Source: a virus. From it: a DNA stretch of 29,170 bases. The position numbers and the translations under genes were made by a program. The stretch covers positions 1 to 29,170 of the IMG/VR virus record IMGVR_UViG_3300036770_003071, one strand, 5' to 3'. This document shows positions 5,790 through 28,950 of the stretch, piece after piece; the first letter of the stretch is position 1, and every line of letters begins with the position of its first letter. Below the pieces are notes generated by a model. That model was not told where the DNA came from, did no database searches, and saw only the letters and a program-made list of their open reading frames with translations.

Positions 5790-6180
5790 CGTCTGGGGTG
5801 TCGGGGCCGATGTCGATGCGCAGCGCGCCGCCCCTCGGGCCGCTCAGCTCGACCGACGAGTGCCTCGGGATGGCGAGGTCGGCCAACTTGGAGGCCGCCG
5901 CCACGCGGGCGCTCGGGCTGACTGACTTGTCTCCCGCGACTTGCGCCAGCGTCTGCACCGCGACGGGCGCCACGCGCACCACGGCGCGCCGTAGGGCATC
6001 CTGCGCGGCACGCTGTGACGCCTCGACCCATGCAGCGACGTGCGGACGGCGGCTGATGCGCCATGCGTGGGTGTGGGAAAAGCCCAGCTCCTCGCCGATC
6101 TTTCGGAACTCGCGCCCCTGCAGCATCAGCTCGGCGACCTTCAGCTCCTCGGGGCTGAGAACGTCACCTTCAGTTGCCAT
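5758..6180 (-). CDS. terS: Terminase small subunit
   Basis: The 140-aa protein has an N-terminal helix-turn-helix-like segment (ELKVAELMLQGREFRKIGEE followed by LGFSHTHAWRISRR, about residues 12-45). A helical oligomerisation region (HVAAWVEASQRAAQDALRR, then VAPVAVQTLAQV) comes next, as in phage small terminases that bind the packaging site. It lies directly upstream of terL. ATG 6180 was chosen because it follows GCGAGGTGTCCG; an earlier in-frame ATG at 6207 has no comparable site. The gene overlaps the methyltransferase stop by 11 bp and terL by 32 bp. It feeds viral DNA to TerL. Confidence 0.82.
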   Translation of the reverse strand: MATEGDVLSPEELKVAELMLQGREFRKIGEELGFSHTHAWRISRRPHVAAWVEASQRAAQDALRRAVVRVAPVAVQTLAQVAGDKSVSPSARVAAASKLADLAIPRHSSVELSGPRGGALRIDIGPDTPDDVLERLAAED

Positions 6181-7531
6181 CGGACACCTCGCGAGGATGG
6201 AGCGCACCGGGGCCGGGGTCGATGCCGTTCTGGACGGCCCACATAGTCCATCGGCGGCGGATGAGATCGCAGTAACGCGGGCTAATCTCGCAACCGTAAG
6301 CGATACGGCCCTCTGCTGCTGCTGCCATCAACGTCGTGCCGCTCCCCATGAACGGGTCGTATACGGCATCGCCGTCGTCGCTGTAAGCCTTGACGAAGAA
6401 CTGCGGTAGAGCCAGTGGGAAGGCTGCGCTATGGCCAGACCCAGCATTGGACCCCATGGCGCATTCGATGACGTTCCCAGGCAGCACCGAGTCGTAGTGC
6501 TTCATGATGCCCCTCGTAGTCTTGCCCTGCCTTATGCTCAGCTTGTCAGGACGGAATTCTCCCGATGATTCACGGTCCTCTCTTACGTTATCAGGTCGAA
6601 ACCTTACATCTTCGGATGCTGAGAAGTGGAAGATAGGTTCCCATTCATTCTTGAACCTAGGACCGAACAGTCCTGGCATACCGCCTCGTCTCCATACAAG
6701 CTGGTCTATGAGCCTCCATGACCAGCCGCGAACGTGCGTAATACACAGGTCAAGTACGTATAGGTGCTTCTGACCCGACTCGGTATGCTCCTTGATGTTC
6801 ACGAACCACGACCCATCCGCAGCCAGATGCGCGCGCACGTTGGCCTGCACAGCATCAAACCACGCGACATAATCGTCCGGCGGAATAGGCTTAAACCCGC
6901 TTGTCTCGTCGTACTTGCGCTGGCTGGCATACGGTGGGCTTGTGAACGCTAGGTTGATGCGCCTCCCATCCATCAGCCTCGACACCATATCAGCATCGCG
7001 ACAGTCACCGCACACCAGCCGATGCGGCCCGAGCTGGTACACCGTGCCCGCCGTGCTGTTAGGCTCGCCGTCCTCGTCCAGCTCTGGCGCGTCATCGCTC
7101 GGCGGCGCTGCCTCGATGCCATCACCGAGCAGCTCGCGCAGCTCGTCGTCATCCCAGCCCAACCCGTCGATCGGCGTGCCCTGCCGCTCAAGCTCGCCGA
7201 GAATGTCGGCCACGGCCTCGTCATCCCATTCGGCAAGCTCGGCGAGCTTGTTGTCGGCCAACGCCAGCGCCGCCGCCTCCGCTGGATCGAGGTCAAGGAA
7301 CCGCACCGGCACCTTGTCCATGCCCAACAACTGCGCAGCCTTCCAGCGAGTATGACCGCCGATGATGACGCGGTCGGCGGTGCGAGCGATGATGGGCGAG
7401 CCGAAGCCGAACCGCCGGATGGAGTCGGCCACGGTCTTGACCGCGTGGTCGTTGCGCCTCGGGTTACGGTCCCACGGGGTCAGGCTGTCGATAGCCTCCC
7501 ATGTAGCCGCAGCATCCAGCCTGCTGGCCAT
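6170..7531 (-). CDS. ParB-domain DNA methyltransferase (N6-adenine or N4-cytosine)
   Basis: The 453-aa protein joins two domains. Residues 10-80 are a ParB/Srx-like domain (PWDRNPRRN, then VIIGGHTRWKAAQLLG with the GHTR box). The rest is a permuted (beta-type) amino-methyltransferase: motif IV TSPPY at 197-201, a target-recognition region, then the SAM-binding motif I DPFMGSGTT at 392-400. Such enzymes modify phage DNA and may protect it from host restriction. ATG 7531 follows a very strong GGAGGTGTGAG. The catalytic part (about 6290-6960) is only about 43-57% GC in the lines I counted, far below its neighbours, so this half may have been acquired separately. The specificity cannot be read from the sequence. 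Confidence 0.92.
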   Translation of the reverse strand: MASRLDAAATWEAIDSLTPWDRNPRRNDHAVKTVADSIRRFGFGSPIIARTADRVIIGGHTRWKAAQLLGMDKVPVRFLDLDPAEAAALALADNKLAELAEWDDEAVADILGELERQGTPIDGLGWDDDELRELLGDGIEAAPPSDDAPELDEDGEPNSTAGTVYQLGPHRLVCGDCRDADMVSRLMDGRRINLAFTSPPYASQRKYDETSGFKPIPPDDYVAWFDAVQANVRAHLAADGSWFVNIKEHTESGQKHLYVLDLCITHVRGWSWRLIDQLVWRRGGMPGLFGPRFKNEWEPIFHFSASEDVRFRPDNVREDRESSGEFRPDKLSIRQGKTTRGIMKHYDSVLPGNVIECAMGSNAGSGHSAAFPLALPQFFVKAYSDDGDAVYDPFMGSGTTLMAAAAEGRIAYGCEISPRYCDLIRRRWTMWAVQNGIDPGPGALHPREVSDGN

Positions 7532-7595
7532 CTCACACCTCCACCGCACACCTACCCGCCGCCGGTGATAGGCGTCAAGCGCCGCCCCGCTCGGC

Positions 7596-8222
7596 TCACA
7601 CCTCCACCGTCGGGCGGGTGTCGGCACCCATCGCCCAGCACGCCAGGGCGACAGCCTCTGCCGCGTGGTCAGGCACCGCCTCGGGCAGCTCGACCGCCAG
7701 CGTAGGGTGCCGCAGCTCCAGCCCGCGCAGGCCGACGTGGTGCCTCCCGTGCAGCCAGTCGAGCGCCAGCCGCTTGGCCCGCTCGCGGTCGACCAGCAGC
7801 CGCCGCCCCGTATACACCTCGCGCCATTCCTCTGGCCTCGGGCGCCGCACCGAACGCCCGCCGACCTCCAGCATGCCCACCGCCAGCCCAGCCGCCTCGG
7901 CCAGCACCAGCGGCGACCCCTTGCCCTTGAAGGCCTGCACCGCCTCGACTGCCGCGCCGTCCATCACATCAGGCCAGCCGTCGACCAGCCACCGCACCCC
8001 GCCGCCGAGGGTGGTGAACCTGCGCACGTCCTCGCCGTCAGGCCCGTAGCGCCGCGCCTCCCACGCCTTGCCTACCGCCCGCCACCAGCCGACGTAGACG
8101 ACGCCCTCGCGCCCGACGACACCGATACCGCCAGCCAGCCTACCGGGGTCGATGCCGACCCAGTAGCCAGCCCCTTCCCTGACTGGTGCTGACTGGTGCT
8201 GACTGGTGAGGCTGACTGGCAT
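7596..8222 (-). CDS. RuvC-like Holliday junction resolvase
   Basis: The 208-aa protein has the RuvC/RNase H-like pattern. It starts with a first strand and acid, VGIDPG (D25). A second acid follows in AVEAV (E93), and a C-terminal DHAAEAVALACWA helix carries the last acids (D185, E189). These residues bind the metal ions that cut branched DNA. In phages such enzymes resolve junctions before packaging. It is the first gene of the late block, upstream of the methyltransferase and terminase. I chose ATG 8222 (GGGGG at suitable spacing). A GTG at 8276 in frame has no ribosome binding site. The first 14 codons are made of the CTGACTGG repeats described below. Confidence 0.82.
   Translation of the reverse strand: MPVSLTSQHQSAPVREGAGYWVGIDPGRLAGGIGVVGREGVVYVGWWRAVGKAWEARRYGPDGEDVRRFTTLGGGVRWLVDGWPDVMDGAAVEAVQAFKGKGSPLVLAEAAGLAVGMLEVGGRSVRRPRPEEWREVYTGRRLLVDRERAKRLALDWLHGRHHVGLRGLELRHPTLAVELPEAVPDHAAEAVALACWAMGADTRPTVEV
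8179..8219. repeat. Iteron-like array: three perfect 10-bp repeats plus a fourth core
   Basis: CTGACTGGTG occurs three times in perfect tandem (8179-8208), and the core CTGACTGG recurs at 8212-8219. A 10-bp period puts the sites on one face of the helix, as in protein-binding iterons. The array lies in the first codons of the RuvC-like gene, at the point where the two gene blocks diverge. Confidence 0.85.
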
Positions 8223-23400: not shown

Positions 23401-23514
23401 GGCCTCGCTGAAGTCGTCGCCGACCGCGTCGTCTGCCGCGTAGTCGGGGTCGAAGTCCAGCGGCAGCAGAATGCCGGTCAGGATGGTGGCGTCGTCGTTC
23501 TGCTTGGTGCCCAT
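20428..23514 (-). CDS. Large tail protein with Asp-box (BNR) repeats, probable tail-tip/receptor-binding protein
   Basis: The 1028-aa protein is the largest in the genome and follows the tape measure gene directly (TGATG). Residues 207-214 (SEDGGATW) and 261-268 (STDGGYTF) are clear Asp-boxes, the calcium-free turns of sialidase-type beta-propellers. Around them are repeated propeller-like strands (VAPDGAVHLY, LGGTVRLFG). The C-terminal part (about 690-1028) is distinct and beta-rich. It is probably a tail-tip or host-binding protein with a carbohydrate-recognising propeller. No sialidase catalytic Arg triad is evident, so binding rather than cleavage is more likely. Confidence 0.7.
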   Translation of the reverse strand: MGTKQNDDATILTGILLPLDFDPDYAADDAVGDDFSEADPQPGAAVYSGTFASRFYPEVSGTPLAPLRLQMKVQDAGAPPSLLARLDTGSGYGGWFGADAPTWRTGYQTVDTDTLETYDILPLPGSTALVAATVQVSSTIVLRVYQRDADGIYDAGTDVATINPVSVAGTHACCLLVAPDGAVHLYAHQQAPDGSGGSTYSLSLWRSEDGGATWDAQGRYIDGGASATRYNQLRGAVLGGTVRLFGTTGTTTARAVTELYSTDGGYTFDSIATQAAPTVVWDAIATATGLYVLAAEAVGGTPTFVIRRATTGTQSVYEGLATTLDASTTAAAYTGGGSLCLRPGGGYLACYDSGTGLQSEQSLDLSTWGNTANLMFAGSGDIRPNQPVMRLVGGTIVVLHQGWDGTTATIGMLMEATYGGASYVTPSLPLAYGAQVVGDALGTVWHPIDSLANYGWTRAATGTPGTSLSRSAGESDAAGAGEAVTHTYSLGGTAERSLVLQVTLEVVSGTATIVLEGNNDTGTITVTSSTISDGTNTDNHSGGYLDVLAVLDSAGNDVSVWWRYNTATVPREWTLLGTTATGAGVLANDGARLSAGASTTVRWLRADLWWWVGFVHPLADGNASDGTDLRGIPLGGGVSTYMAGGLSVSPRGGTGARNGETWTMRSGGQFVKRNLLPSVQPSPRRGWRSGTAPADQILQFSLNSGNPQARGSELFAVALLGLDSVPTVVVKDAGTTLATLDLRIPWSVSATQGDALQALSTGTRTLGPWLREDELVGGFAEFVTSGDVLRIVGNTSGSLTYGSSQAERRAVVYLESDAPAAAQAVKLWPPKALLVRYGGAPTESLQLVLRGTDPIHADDYRGIGQVVAGRVEVMGRNWDRGTSVEVVPGDVIQTAPDGSRYLTQREPTRRRVEVAVVDSHLDVSQLRSATSSPDYVVVTTGGTTPAADRYAAPLSLEGIVRHIGRSPCVLLPSLPRASAGWVAYTTGGASEWLYGRLTNAFRREQLGIGQFGVGDGYRVPVLSFEEEV

Positions 23515-25211
23515 CAGTAGACTCCTGCGAGGCGCATGCCGTAGGTCGGGTCGGGTGCGGCGAACAAGCGCGTGCCCACCCTGCGCCCGTCTAGCATCAC
23601 GAACACCCCGCCGCCGGTAGCCGGTGCCTCGCCTGCGTTCATGCGCGCCAGCCCTGACTGCCCGAGCGCCCGAGCACCCTGCGCCGTCATCATGGCGGGC
23701 ACCTCGTTGCGCCTGATGACCACCTCGTCGGGCGACAGCATCGAGGGGCTGGCAAGGTAGCCGCCACGGTGGAATGTCGGGCGCTGCTTGGCGATGAGAC
23801 CTATCTGCACGCCAGTCTGCGCCGCCACGATGGGTGCCATGATGGCGCCGCCGACAGGGCCTAGCTCGGCGAACGCCCGAGTGATGGCGACCGCGCCGTT
23901 GATGATGGCCTCTGACACGCGGGCCGCTTTCATCGCCGTAAACAGGCGCATCTTGACCTGTCGGCTGGCGCCGTCTGCCAGCTCCAGCGCCCCGCTGAAG
24001 ATGTCGCCGACCGCACCGACCCCAGCGCCGACTTTGCTGAACACGTCAGCCACACCGGCGGCGCTGGCCTTGAACTTCTCCAGCTTGATCGGCAGCTCGT
24101 CGATGGTCTCGCCGACCGCCATGAACGCCTCGTTGAGAGAGCCACCGAGGTCGGCCTCTTGCATCTGCCCCTCGATGCCAGCCATAAACTCGGCAGCCTT
24201 GCGCGCCGCTGCCTCGGCCTCAGTCTCGGCGAACTCGATCTCGCCGATCTCGCCGAACTCGATGGTCGGCATGGTGTCGACAGCCTTAGCCGTTTCGGTT
24301 GCAGCCTTGGTGGTGTGCTGGATGGCTTGAGTCAGCCCACGGTACTGCTTGGTCACGTCAGCGATGCGCGGCGCCTGCGCTGCGTGCGCGTCGCTTGCCT
24401 TGGTCGTCGCGTGCGCCTCGGCCTCGGTCTGCTCGGCCAGCTCCTTGCGCTGCCGCAGGTAGCCCTGCACCGTGCCCGCCGCGACCTCCAGCGCCTTGGA
24501 GTGCGCGCCGAACACGTTGCCCGACAACACCTGGTCTGCCAGCTCGCCGAAGTAGGTGATGCTGCCCACCAGCCCCGTCATGAACTGGTTCCAGCGCGGG
24601 GCGAACTTAGCCGCCGCCGTCGCGATGAACGTGTCCCACACCCGCTGACTGAGCGTCACCCCGGCGTTGGCCTGATACAGCGCGTCGACCTGCCCCTGCG
24701 TCACCATGTTGGTGTGCGCGGCGCGGTCGATGGCCTCGGTATAGTCTTGGATGTTGGTGATGACGCCGAACACCTGACCAGCCAGCGCACCGATAGCCGC
24801 GACGGCAGCGAGCGCGGCGACACCCACGGCAGCGGTGCGTGGTCCAGCTGCAGCGGCCAGCTCGCTGAAGTCGTTCAGCGGCCCCACGATGTCGCCCATG
24901 GCGCCGTTGAGCACTCGGGTGCCCTTGTCGAGGTGCCCGAGCTGCTCGCCGAGGTCGGCCGTACTGCGCGCCGCGTGGTCGGCCCTGTCCTCGTACTTGG
25001 CGATGTCGACGCCAGCCTTGCGCGCAGCGTCTGCTGCCTTGTCGAACTTGGTTTGAGCCTCGGCCATGGCGCGGTTCAGCTCGGCGCTGGTGTCCTCGGT
25101 CTCAGCCACGGCACGGGCGAACCGGCCCAGCTCGTCGCGGGCACGCTTGACCTCCGACTCCATCTTGCTGGCGTCGGCGTTGATGATGATGTTCACGTCA
25201 CCCTGTGCCAT
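23514..25211 (-). CDS. Tape measure protein
   Basis: The 565-aa protein follows the tail chaperone genes. It has a coiled N-terminal part (MAQGDVNIIINADASKMESE, then charged helices to about residue 100), a hydrophobic stretch (VGVAALAAVAAIGALAGQVF, about 127-150), further helices and a Gly/Met-rich C-terminus. These are tape measure features. At about 1.5 Angstrom per residue the tail would be about 85 nm, which is an estimate. GAGGGGGCTAC precedes the ATG. The frameshift extension ends 14 bp inside its start. Confidence 0.9.
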   Translation of the reverse strand: MAQGDVNIIINADASKMESEVKRARDELGRFARAVAETEDTSAELNRAMAEAQTKFDKAADAARKAGVDIAKYEDRADHAARSTADLGEQLGHLDKGTRVLNGAMGDIVGPLNDFSELAAAAGPRTAAVGVAALAAVAAIGALAGQVFGVITNIQDYTEAIDRAAHTNMVTQGQVDALYQANAGVTLSQRVWDTFIATAAAKFAPRWNQFMTGLVGSITYFGELADQVLSGNVFGAHSKALEVAAGTVQGYLRQRKELAEQTEAEAHATTKASDAHAAQAPRIADVTKQYRGLTQAIQHTTKAATETAKAVDTMPTIEFGEIGEIEFAETEAEAAARKAAEFMAGIEGQMQEADLGGSLNEAFMAVGETIDELPIKLEKFKASAAGVADVFSKVGAGVGAVGDIFSGALELADGASRQVKMRLFTAMKAARVSEAIINGAVAITRAFAELGPVGGAIMAPIVAAQTGVQIGLIAKQRPTFHRGGYLASPSMLSPDEVVIRRNEVPAMMTAQGARALGQSGLARMNAGEAPATGGGVFVMLDGRRVGTRLFAAPDPTYGMRLAGVY

Positions 25212-25356
25212 GTAGCCCCCTCATGCGCGCCGTCGTGTCTGGGTCGCTGCGCCAGTATGCCACCCACGCTGCCCGCTCGGCGCGGTCGAGCGCGTGCCAG
25301 TCGACGCGGTACCGCGCCCACATATCCAGCAGCATGTAGTCGACCTGGCCTTCACC
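25198..25356 (-). CDS. Tail assembly chaperone extension, read by probable +1 frameshift
   Basis: After the stop of the 163-aa gene the +1 frame stays open and codes GEGQVDYMLLDMWARYRVDW, then HALDRAERAAWVAYW and a short basic end, stopping at 25200-25198 inside the tape measure start. This looks like the second part of a G-GT type chaperone. A fused product would be 214 aa. Independent start at ATG 25335 (45 aa) is possible but no ribosome binding site is obvious. The fused form binds tape measure and tube proteins in known phages. Confidence 0.65.
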   Translation of the reverse strand, partial: GEGQVDYMLLDMWARYRVDWHALDRAERAAWVAYWRSDPDTTARMRGLHGTG

Positions 25357-25360
25357 CGCG
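25351..25360 (-). promoter_or_regulatory. Candidate +1 frameshift site CGC GGG TGA A
   Basis: The last codons of the 163-aa gene are TTT CGC GGG, then TGA. A tRNA-Gly on GGG can re-pair with GGT one base on, at a slow UGA stop. This parallels the known CCC-UGA (phage PSA) and CUU-UGA (prfB) +1 sites. GC-rich GAGG triplets lie upstream but not at the prfB distance. I see no -1 slippery heptamer in the overlap. Confidence 0.55.
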
Positions 25361-25843
25361 AAACGTGGCCTCGGCCTCGCGGACCTCCACGTCTGACGGC
25401 ATGCCCTGCAGTACCTCGACCGAGCGCCGGTACAGCTCCATTCCTACGCGGATGATGTCGGCCTCGGGCCAGCCGCTGTCGTACAGCTCGTCGGCGGCGA
25501 AGCGCCCCGCCGCAGACCGACCACCAGCGGGCGCCCGTGTGAAGGCCATCGCGTCGTACAGCGTGCGCGCCTGCAGCTCCCACGCTGGGTCGGCCCAGCA
25601 CCGCATGATGATGTACCCCGAGGCCCGCACCAGCGCGTCCTGCGCATCGAGGAAGGCCCCGGCGTCGTTGACATCCTGTGCCGCCTTAGCGGCCTGCGCG
25701 GCCTCGGTAGCAGGCTCGACCATCGCCACAATCTCGGACGGGCGAGGCAGGCGCAGCACAGTACCCGCCGCCGTAGGGGTGTCGGCGCGCAGGTACGGGT
25801 GGCGGTCGGGTGGGTCTGGCAGTCGCTCGGCTCGTTGCTCCAT
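25352..25843 (-). CDS. Tail assembly chaperone, first part (gpG-like)
   Basis: The 163-aa protein lies between the tail tube and tape measure genes, the standard place of the gpG chaperone. It is helical and mostly acidic (RPSEIVAMVEPATEAAQAAK, then MELYRRSVEVLQGMPSDVEV). ATG 25843 follows CTCGGAGGTGCCCG; an in-frame ATG at 25969 lies inside the tube gene and is rejected. It would coat the tape measure while the tail tube grows. It ends at GGG-TGA, where a +1 shift gives the longer form. Confidence 0.75.
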   Translation of the reverse strand: MEQRAERLPDPPDRHPYLRADTPTAAGTVLRLPRPSEIVAMVEPATEAAQAAKAAQDVNDAGAFLDAQDALVRASGYIIMRCWADPAWELQARTLYDAMAFTRAPAGGRSAAGRFAADELYDSGWPEADIIRVGMELYRRSVEVLQGMPSDVEVREAEATFRG

Positions 25844-25878: not shown

Positions 25879-26391
25879 TCAGGGGTTGCGCGTGATGCCG
25901 ATGACAGCGTTCGGCGACTCGACCGTGAAGGTGAGCATGATGCCGTCGCGGGCGGGGTTCATGGACCACCCCGGCTGAACCACGCAGTCGTTCAGCGCGT
26001 AGACTGCGCCCTTGTTGGTGCCGCTGTCTGCCAGAGTCAACGTAAAGTCGAAGGTCTCAAGGTCGCTATCGGTGTCGGTGCTGGTCCACGTCGAGGCGAA
26101 GTAGCCAGTGCCGTTCATGATGTCCATGAGGACCGCCTCGCTGGCATTCGCGCCGGGGTCGAACATCGCCGCCGAGATGGACACCGTAGACGGGTTGGCG
26201 ACCTCGCCCTTGCGCGCAGGGCCGATGTAGTCGCCCGCCGCGTCCTTCATGCGCACGATGGTGTACCCACCTGCAGTGATGGCAGCCTGACCCGAGGTCA
26301 GCCGGATGGTGTAGGTCTTGGGCGTGGCGGTGGCATCCTTGAACGCCAAGGTAGCGCCGCGCAGGGTGTGGAAGAATGTTTGCTCGGCCAT
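25879..26391 (-). CDS. Major tail tube protein
   Basis: The 170-aa product has a beta-rich sequence (FFHTLRGATLAFKDATATPK, then YTIVRMKDAAGDYIGPARKG), a long STWTSTDTDSD loop and a C-terminal FTVESPNAVIGITRNP. Size, composition and place upstream of the chaperone fit a siphovirus tail tube subunit. ATG 26391 follows CTAGGAGGCCCGCT, the same strong type of site as the capsid gene, as needed for an abundant protein. The longer frame from 26448 overlaps the upstream gene and is rejected. Confidence 0.8.
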   Translation of the reverse strand: MAEQTFFHTLRGATLAFKDATATPKTYTIRLTSGQAAITAGGYTIVRMKDAAGDYIGPARKGEVANPSTVSISAAMFDPGANASEAVLMDIMNGTGYFASTWTSTDTDSDLETFDFTLTLADSGTNKGAVYALNDCVVQPGWSMNPARDGIMLTFTVESPNAVIGITRNP

Positions 26392-28600: not shown

Positions 28601-28950
28601 CAGGCACCTCGACGGAAGTAGCGGTCAGACGGGGCTAGGCCCAGCGTCGTGACGGCGGCGGTGGGGAGGATCGGACCCTGCGCGGCGTACTGCTCGATGA
28701 GGGTCTGCAGGTACTGGGCGGCGGCGGTCTCATCGACCGAACCGTCCTCGTTTGAGAAGTTGCGGGCGAACCGTGCGACCTTGACCAACAAGACGCGCGC
28801 CGCCTCTGCGACTGCACCGCGCCAGCCGCCCGCGTCGGCGATGATGGCGGTCAGCTCCTCGTCGCTGAAGAACTGGTCCTCGGGGCGGGTGTCCATCAGG
28901 CGCAGACGTACCCGCCCGATGTCTGTGGTGGGCGAGTACGTGAACGTCAC
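28600..28950 (-). CDS. Head-tail connector protein (gp6-like)
   Basis: The 116-aa protein resembles the gp6/gp15-like connectors that form a ring under the portal: YSPTTDIGRVRLRLMDTRPE, then FFSDEELTAIIADAGGWRGA with helices, and RVLLVKVARFARNFSNED. The GTG start at 28950 overlaps the stop of the 74-aa gene (GTGA). Its place after the capsid gene fits this call. Confidence 0.75.
   Translation of the reverse strand: MTFTYSPTTDIGRVRLRLMDTRPEDQFFSDEELTAIIADAGGWRGAVAEAARVLLVKVARFARNFSNEDGSVDETAAAQYLQTLIEQYAAQGPILPTAAVTTLGLAPSDRYFRRGA

Follow-up and report, generated by a model that had tools for sequence, protein, structure and literature searches.

How is the long form of a tail assembly chaperone made when its extension lies in the +1 frame? 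The question is raised by a locus in the IMG/VR virus record IMGVR_UViG_3300036770_003071, a stretch of 29,170 bases (here called the window), in which a 163-amino-acid open reading frame (ORF) on the minus strand is followed by an overlapping +1 frame and then by the tape measure gene. All features of the locus lie on this strand. An earlier note on this DNA had proposed that the chaperone extension requires a +1 shift, not the usual -1, and had placed the shift at GGG_TGA. The direction of the shift is backed by synteny, by codon usage and by the likeness of the +1 peptide to the extensions of related viruses. We consider it fairly probable that the locus encodes a two-form, siphovirus-like tail chaperone, whose long form would arise by a +1 slip on UUU in the ribosomal peptidyl (P) site with CGC in the aminoacyl (A) site.

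Coding switches from frame 0 to the +1 frame at the end of the chaperone ORF

On the minus strand, the gene order runs from the portal gene and a Mu gpT-like major capsid gene through the connector genes and the tail tube gene to the 163-amino-acid ORF, the +1 frame and the tape measure gene. A short ORF with an overlapping out-of-frame extension lies between the major tail protein and tape measure genes, as in the gpG/gpGT arrangement, and the coding potential passes into the second frame there. We found no match in Pfam or PHROG for the ORF, the extension or the counterparts of either in relatives, and the chaperone label therefore rests on position and architecture. Such chaperones are very divergent and are recognized by position and recoding, so that a family match is no strict requirement. 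The predicted model of the chaperone is all-helical, and structural matching gave nothing significant. By position, architecture and recoding, the ORF and its extension are a probable tail assembly chaperone.

The +1 frame is open from past a TAG (25446-25444) to a TGA (25200-25198) and overlaps the tape measure ATG at 25211. The extension ends just inside the tape measure start, as the earlier note had it. We fitted a single frame 0 to +1 switch with a codon-usage model whose training set was 14 other genes of the contig. The best placement was at 25363, and all placements within 2 log units of it lie in 25366-25354. An independent Viterbi segmentation over all six frames put the switch at 25361/25362 and found no other coding-frame break in the 29-kb contig that lacked a start or stop explanation.

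The +1 peptide resembles the extensions of two related contigs, L007 (Smith-Waterman z 5.6; 0 of 500 shuffles as good) and L005 (z 3.7; 2 of 500 shuffles), whereas the peptides of frames 0 and -1 matched neither in the same comparison. The earlier note gave the extension as 52 amino acids; counted after the GGG codon, it has 51. The fused product of chaperone and extension is computed at 214 amino acids. The extension lies in +1, and the overlap contains no canonical X_XXY_YYZ heptamer of the kind used for -1 shifts. As a sequence feature, the frame switch exceeds chance.

Relatives of the window virus with a readable junction use a -1 shift

Relatives were collected by profile searches with the capsid and neighboring proteins (35-68% capsid identity). 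The short form shares 24-29% identity with the chaperones of L005 and L007; besides these two contigs, no close relatives of the chaperone, the tape measure, the extension motif or a tail-fiber-like protein were found. Profile searches of genome contigs with the capsid and the tail tube gave no match, and a search of a phage collection with the capsid protein returned one weak partial match (MW202785.1).

The chaperone junction could be read in six distinct contigs (L005, L006, L007, L023, L027 and L029). In all six, an extension overlaps in the -1 frame, the site is heptamer-like or a U-run, and the arrangement is of the lambda gpG/gpGT-type -1 kind. The sequences at the junctions are GAG GTT TTT CCG (L005), CCA AAA AAG (L006), GAT TTT TGA (L007), GCT TTT TTT ACC (L023), GCG GGA AAC (L027) and ATC CCA AAA AAC (L029). 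Because all six relatives keep such an extension, the predicted two-product design is conserved, with a different predicted shift direction in the window. As every readable relative uses -1, the direction of the shift seems to have changed in the lineage of the window virus while the codon stayed the same. Homologs fused in frame, which the earlier note had named as a finding that would speak against a shift, were looked for and rejected, as none was seen among the relatives examined.

Two further arrangements were observed among the relatives. In L005 (12308-12844), the chaperone stop overlaps the ATG of the -1 extension (ATGA), and translational coupling is possible there too. In L020 (5568-6080) and L021 (3408-3920), a single ORF of about 170 amino acids with no visible extension frame lies between the tail tube and the tape measure.

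TTT_CGC as the probable shift site

The sequence of the switch zone is ACG TTT CGC GGG TGA, and the overlap accordingly contains an in-phase UUU followed by a CGN codon close to the frame switch, two codons upstream of GGG_TGA. TTT accounts for 21 of 155 Phe codons, TTT_C was counted at 2 of 6810 codons, and TTT_CGC is absent from all other genes tested. TTT_C is present in 0.15% of five-codon segments, whereas some triple-base codon is present in 21%. Within the chaperone gene TTT_C is unique, whereas GGG_T is present again in frame at codon 76. In the protein alignment, Phe161 of the window (TTT) stands opposite the Phe of the L005 (GTT_TTT_CCG) and L007 (GAT_TTT_TGA) sites. A move from UUU to UUC is perfect re-pairing for the transfer RNA of phenylalanine, tRNA-Phe (the argument of PMC3498833).

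The same TTT_CGC motif is found at the +1 chaperone junction of the haloarchaeal myoviruses HF2 and HSTV-2 (Hafunaviridae), and TTT-CGC has been proposed for the chaperone +1 shift of the HF1-group viruses (PMC7230728). In HF2 (AF222060, 61340-61810, minus strand), the chaperone ends in TTT_CGC_AGA_TAG, in phase and with the layout TTT CGC NNN stop seen in the window. HSTV-2 (KC117376, 15489) has an in-phase TCC_TTT_CGC, and its annotated join lies one base forward. Given the re-pairing of tRNA-Phe, the rarity of the site, its uniqueness in the gene, its alignment with the sites of relatives and the motif in HF2 and HSTV-2, TTT_CGC is better supported than GGG_TGA. The latter is present where the earlier note placed it, but is probably not the shift site.

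Alternative explanations

Several observations weigh against a slip at TTT_CGC. By codon usage alone, TTT and GGG differ by under 2 log units, too little to choose between them. CGC is a common codon in the window genome, which gives no sign of slow decoding in the A site. The RNA downstream, considered as a stimulator, folds no differently from shuffled sequences (z -0.10 and -0.65), and Rfam gave nothing on the coding strand. A Shine-Dalgarno sequence at the 3-nucleotide spacing of prfB is absent, with a GAGG 5 nucleotides upstream of TTT. Moreover, the arrangement comes from a single genome, as the same junction was not found in a close relative among viral or genome contigs.

This last point bears on the main rival, in which a gene otherwise like those of the -1 relatives has its +1 arrangement through a change of one base, either an error of assembly or sequencing or a genuine mutation. 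One base converts between the two arrangements, all six readable relatives have the other one, and neither reads nor a sister genome cover the junction. We nevertheless regard this explanation as unlikely: errors must be rare in a 29-kb contig with no other unexplained frame switch, the homopolymers at the switch are just 3 bases long, and the overlap, devoid of a canonical heptamer, has the rare TTT_CGC at the very point of the switch.

Also unlikely, and next in rank, is a real +1 shift at GGG_TGA, in which tRNA-Gly would re-pair from GGG to GGU while the stop is read slowly. GGG stands directly before UGA, with no Shine-Dalgarno sequence at the prfB spacing; stop codons in the A site favor +1 shifts (CUU_UGA in prfB, CCC_UGA in Listeria phages; PMC5009743), and codon usage is compatible with the site. 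However, GGG is a common codon, GGG_T recurs in the gene, and the shift sites of relatives align with TTT, not GGG. The text of PMC10885494 lists CUU, CCC and UUU, not GGG, as the codons that slip most readily ahead of a stop.

It is improbable that no frameshift occurs and that ribosomes, having ended at the TGA 17 bases upstream, re-initiate at the ATG at 25335 to make a separate protein. This ATG exists and would give 45 amino acids, in agreement with the earlier note, and the ATGA overlap in L005 makes coupling conceivable in the family; a title cited in PMC12859696 also reports a mechanism other than frameshifting for T4-like phages. Yet the likeness to L005 begins upstream of the ATG (AGEGQVDYM in the window, AGWGADDLM in L005), and the coding statistics of the +1 frame set in at 25363-25354, ahead of 25335. 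The ATG has a weak Shine-Dalgarno sequence in comparison with the GGAGG and GAGGGG of neighboring genes, and the L007 extension has no ATG or GTG before the homologous region. A -2 shift, which leads into the same frame and is used for gpGT of phage Mu (stated in PMC3498833), is very improbable, as no codon of the switch zone re-pairs two bases upstream (TTT to CGT, GGG to GCG).

Proposed mechanism of the +1 slip

Gene order, open frames, switch position, homology of the +1 peptide and rarity of the site were all computed; we infer shifting in vivo, its efficiency and the exact tRNA event. In the proposed slip on UUU, the majority of ribosomes would end at the TGA at 25354 and release the 163-amino-acid short chaperone. 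In a minority, peptidyl-tRNA-Phe on UUU (25363-25361), with CGC in the A site, would slip one base forward and re-pair with UUC. Reading would then continue as GCG GGU GAA GGC and onward to give the 214-amino-acid long form. The C-terminal domain of this form would link the complex of chaperone and tape measure to the tail tube protein; in the lambda gpG/gpGT pair, the T part recruits the tail tube protein (PMC5009743). The role of the CGN codon was left open by the studies of PA-X and amalgaviruses (PMC3498833, PMC5052127).

Comparison with known frameshift systems

The window shares with lambda gpG/gpGT the position of the gene, the two products and the tape measure downstream, and differs in the direction of the shift and the slippery site. 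The HF1-group viruses and HSTV-2 share the motif; they are contractile-tailed archaeal viruses, unlike the window virus, whose relatives use -1, and the phage-collection search found no similarity to their chaperone proteins. The host of the window virus is probably bacterial, given its Mu gpT-like capsid, its endolysin and its non-acidic proteome. A haloarchaeal host, as in the HF1-like case, was rejected, since the proteome is not acidic enough (Asp+Glu 11.8%).

In influenza A PA-X and the amalgaviruses, as in the window, UUU in the P site is followed by a CGN Arg codon, and tRNA-Phe moves to UUC (PMC3498833, PMC5052127). In PA-X, peptide sequencing showed that UUU_CGU is a site of +1 shifting (PMC3498833), and UUU_CGN is prevalent in amalgaviruses (PMC5052127). 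These systems differ in that they involve eukaryotic ribosomes, RNA viruses and unrelated products, and UUU is preceded by UCC in PA-X and by ACG in the window. The TCC_TTT_CGC of HSTV-2 equals the PA-X site save for the last base. A +1 shift in a phage tail gene is also known from the Listeria phages PSA, A118 and A500 and from SPP1, but there the gene concerned encodes the major tail protein and not the chaperone, and in the Listeria phages the shift takes place at CCC_UGA (PMC5009743, PMC3498833).

Locus and genome context

Both the chaperone ORF (GGAGG) and the tape measure gene have strong Shine-Dalgarno sequences. The PHROG matches that support the tape measure are weak. The tail tube protein was modeled with modest confidence (mean predicted local distance difference test score, pLDDT, of 60), and almost all matches to the model are tail tube or Hcp folds (T5, SPP1, lambda gpV, HFTV1).

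Table 1. Features of the chaperone locus, in window coordinates.
Feature	Position	Strand	Basis
TTT_CGC, proposed site of the +1 shift (P site UUU, A site CGC)	25358..25363	-	codon-usage optimum, rarity, homology, motif
GGG_TGA, candidate site of the earlier note (GGG 25357-25355, stop TGA 25354-25352)	25352..25357	-	sequence
Tail assembly chaperone, short form, 163 amino acids, gpG-like position	25352..25843	-	ATG 25843, stop TGA 25354-25352
Extension in the +1 frame, 53 amino acids after Phe (AGEGQVDYMLLDMWARYRVDW...), stop TGA 25200-25198	25198..25359	-	open frame
TAG stop in the +1 frame, upstream limit of the possible shift region	25444..25446	-	sequence
ATG of a possible independent 45-amino-acid product (rival explanation)	25333..25335	-	weak Shine-Dalgarno-like bases upstream
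Tape measure protein, 565 amino acids, start within the extension	23514..25211	-	PHROG tape measure matches, E about 1e-4
Major tail (tube) protein, upstream neighbor	25879..26391	-	predicted fold

The capsid gene (131-1147) and its usual downstream neighbor (28603-28950), both on the minus strand, lie at opposite ends of the contig, while the two are adjacent in L002 and L003. This placement makes it probable that the contig is a circularly permuted and nearly complete genome. Elsewhere on the minus strand (6173-7627), one protein combines an N-terminal ParB-like nuclease domain with a C-terminal DNA methyltransferase domain.

Significance of a proposed UUU_CGC shift in a phage chaperone

Tail chaperones with a +1 frameshift, UUU_CGN sites and the combination of the two in archaeal viruses are already on record. 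Sites for +1 shifts on UUU_C, with CGN preferred, were predicted as a class by Firth et al. (PMC3498833), and PMC10885494 counts 350 forward slippery-site cases among actinobacteriophage training data, whose nucleotides its accessible text does not name. We found no earlier +1 shift on UUU_C in a bacteriophage chaperone in the literature searched, and within that literature the window gives the first probable UUU_CGC chaperone shift in a lineage other than those on record, with relatives that use -1.

A bolder proposal, somewhat less likely than not, is that a phage lineage turned a -1 into a +1 shift at the same Phe codon by a single-base insertion or deletion that converted a U-run -1 site into UUU_CGC, and that UUU_CGN would thus be a general +1 signal on bacterial, archaeal and eukaryotic ribosomes. 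So far, the motif is documented in eukaryotic viruses and, as a proposal, in one group of haloarchaeal viruses. Its presence in an unrelated lineage that has -1 relatives and probably a bacterial host points to convergence on the motif. Gene callers mostly seek -1 heptamers and would be helped by the window case. Together with its relatives, the window virus offers a natural before-and-after pair for asking how a phage keeps the ratio of its two products while the direction of the shift changes.
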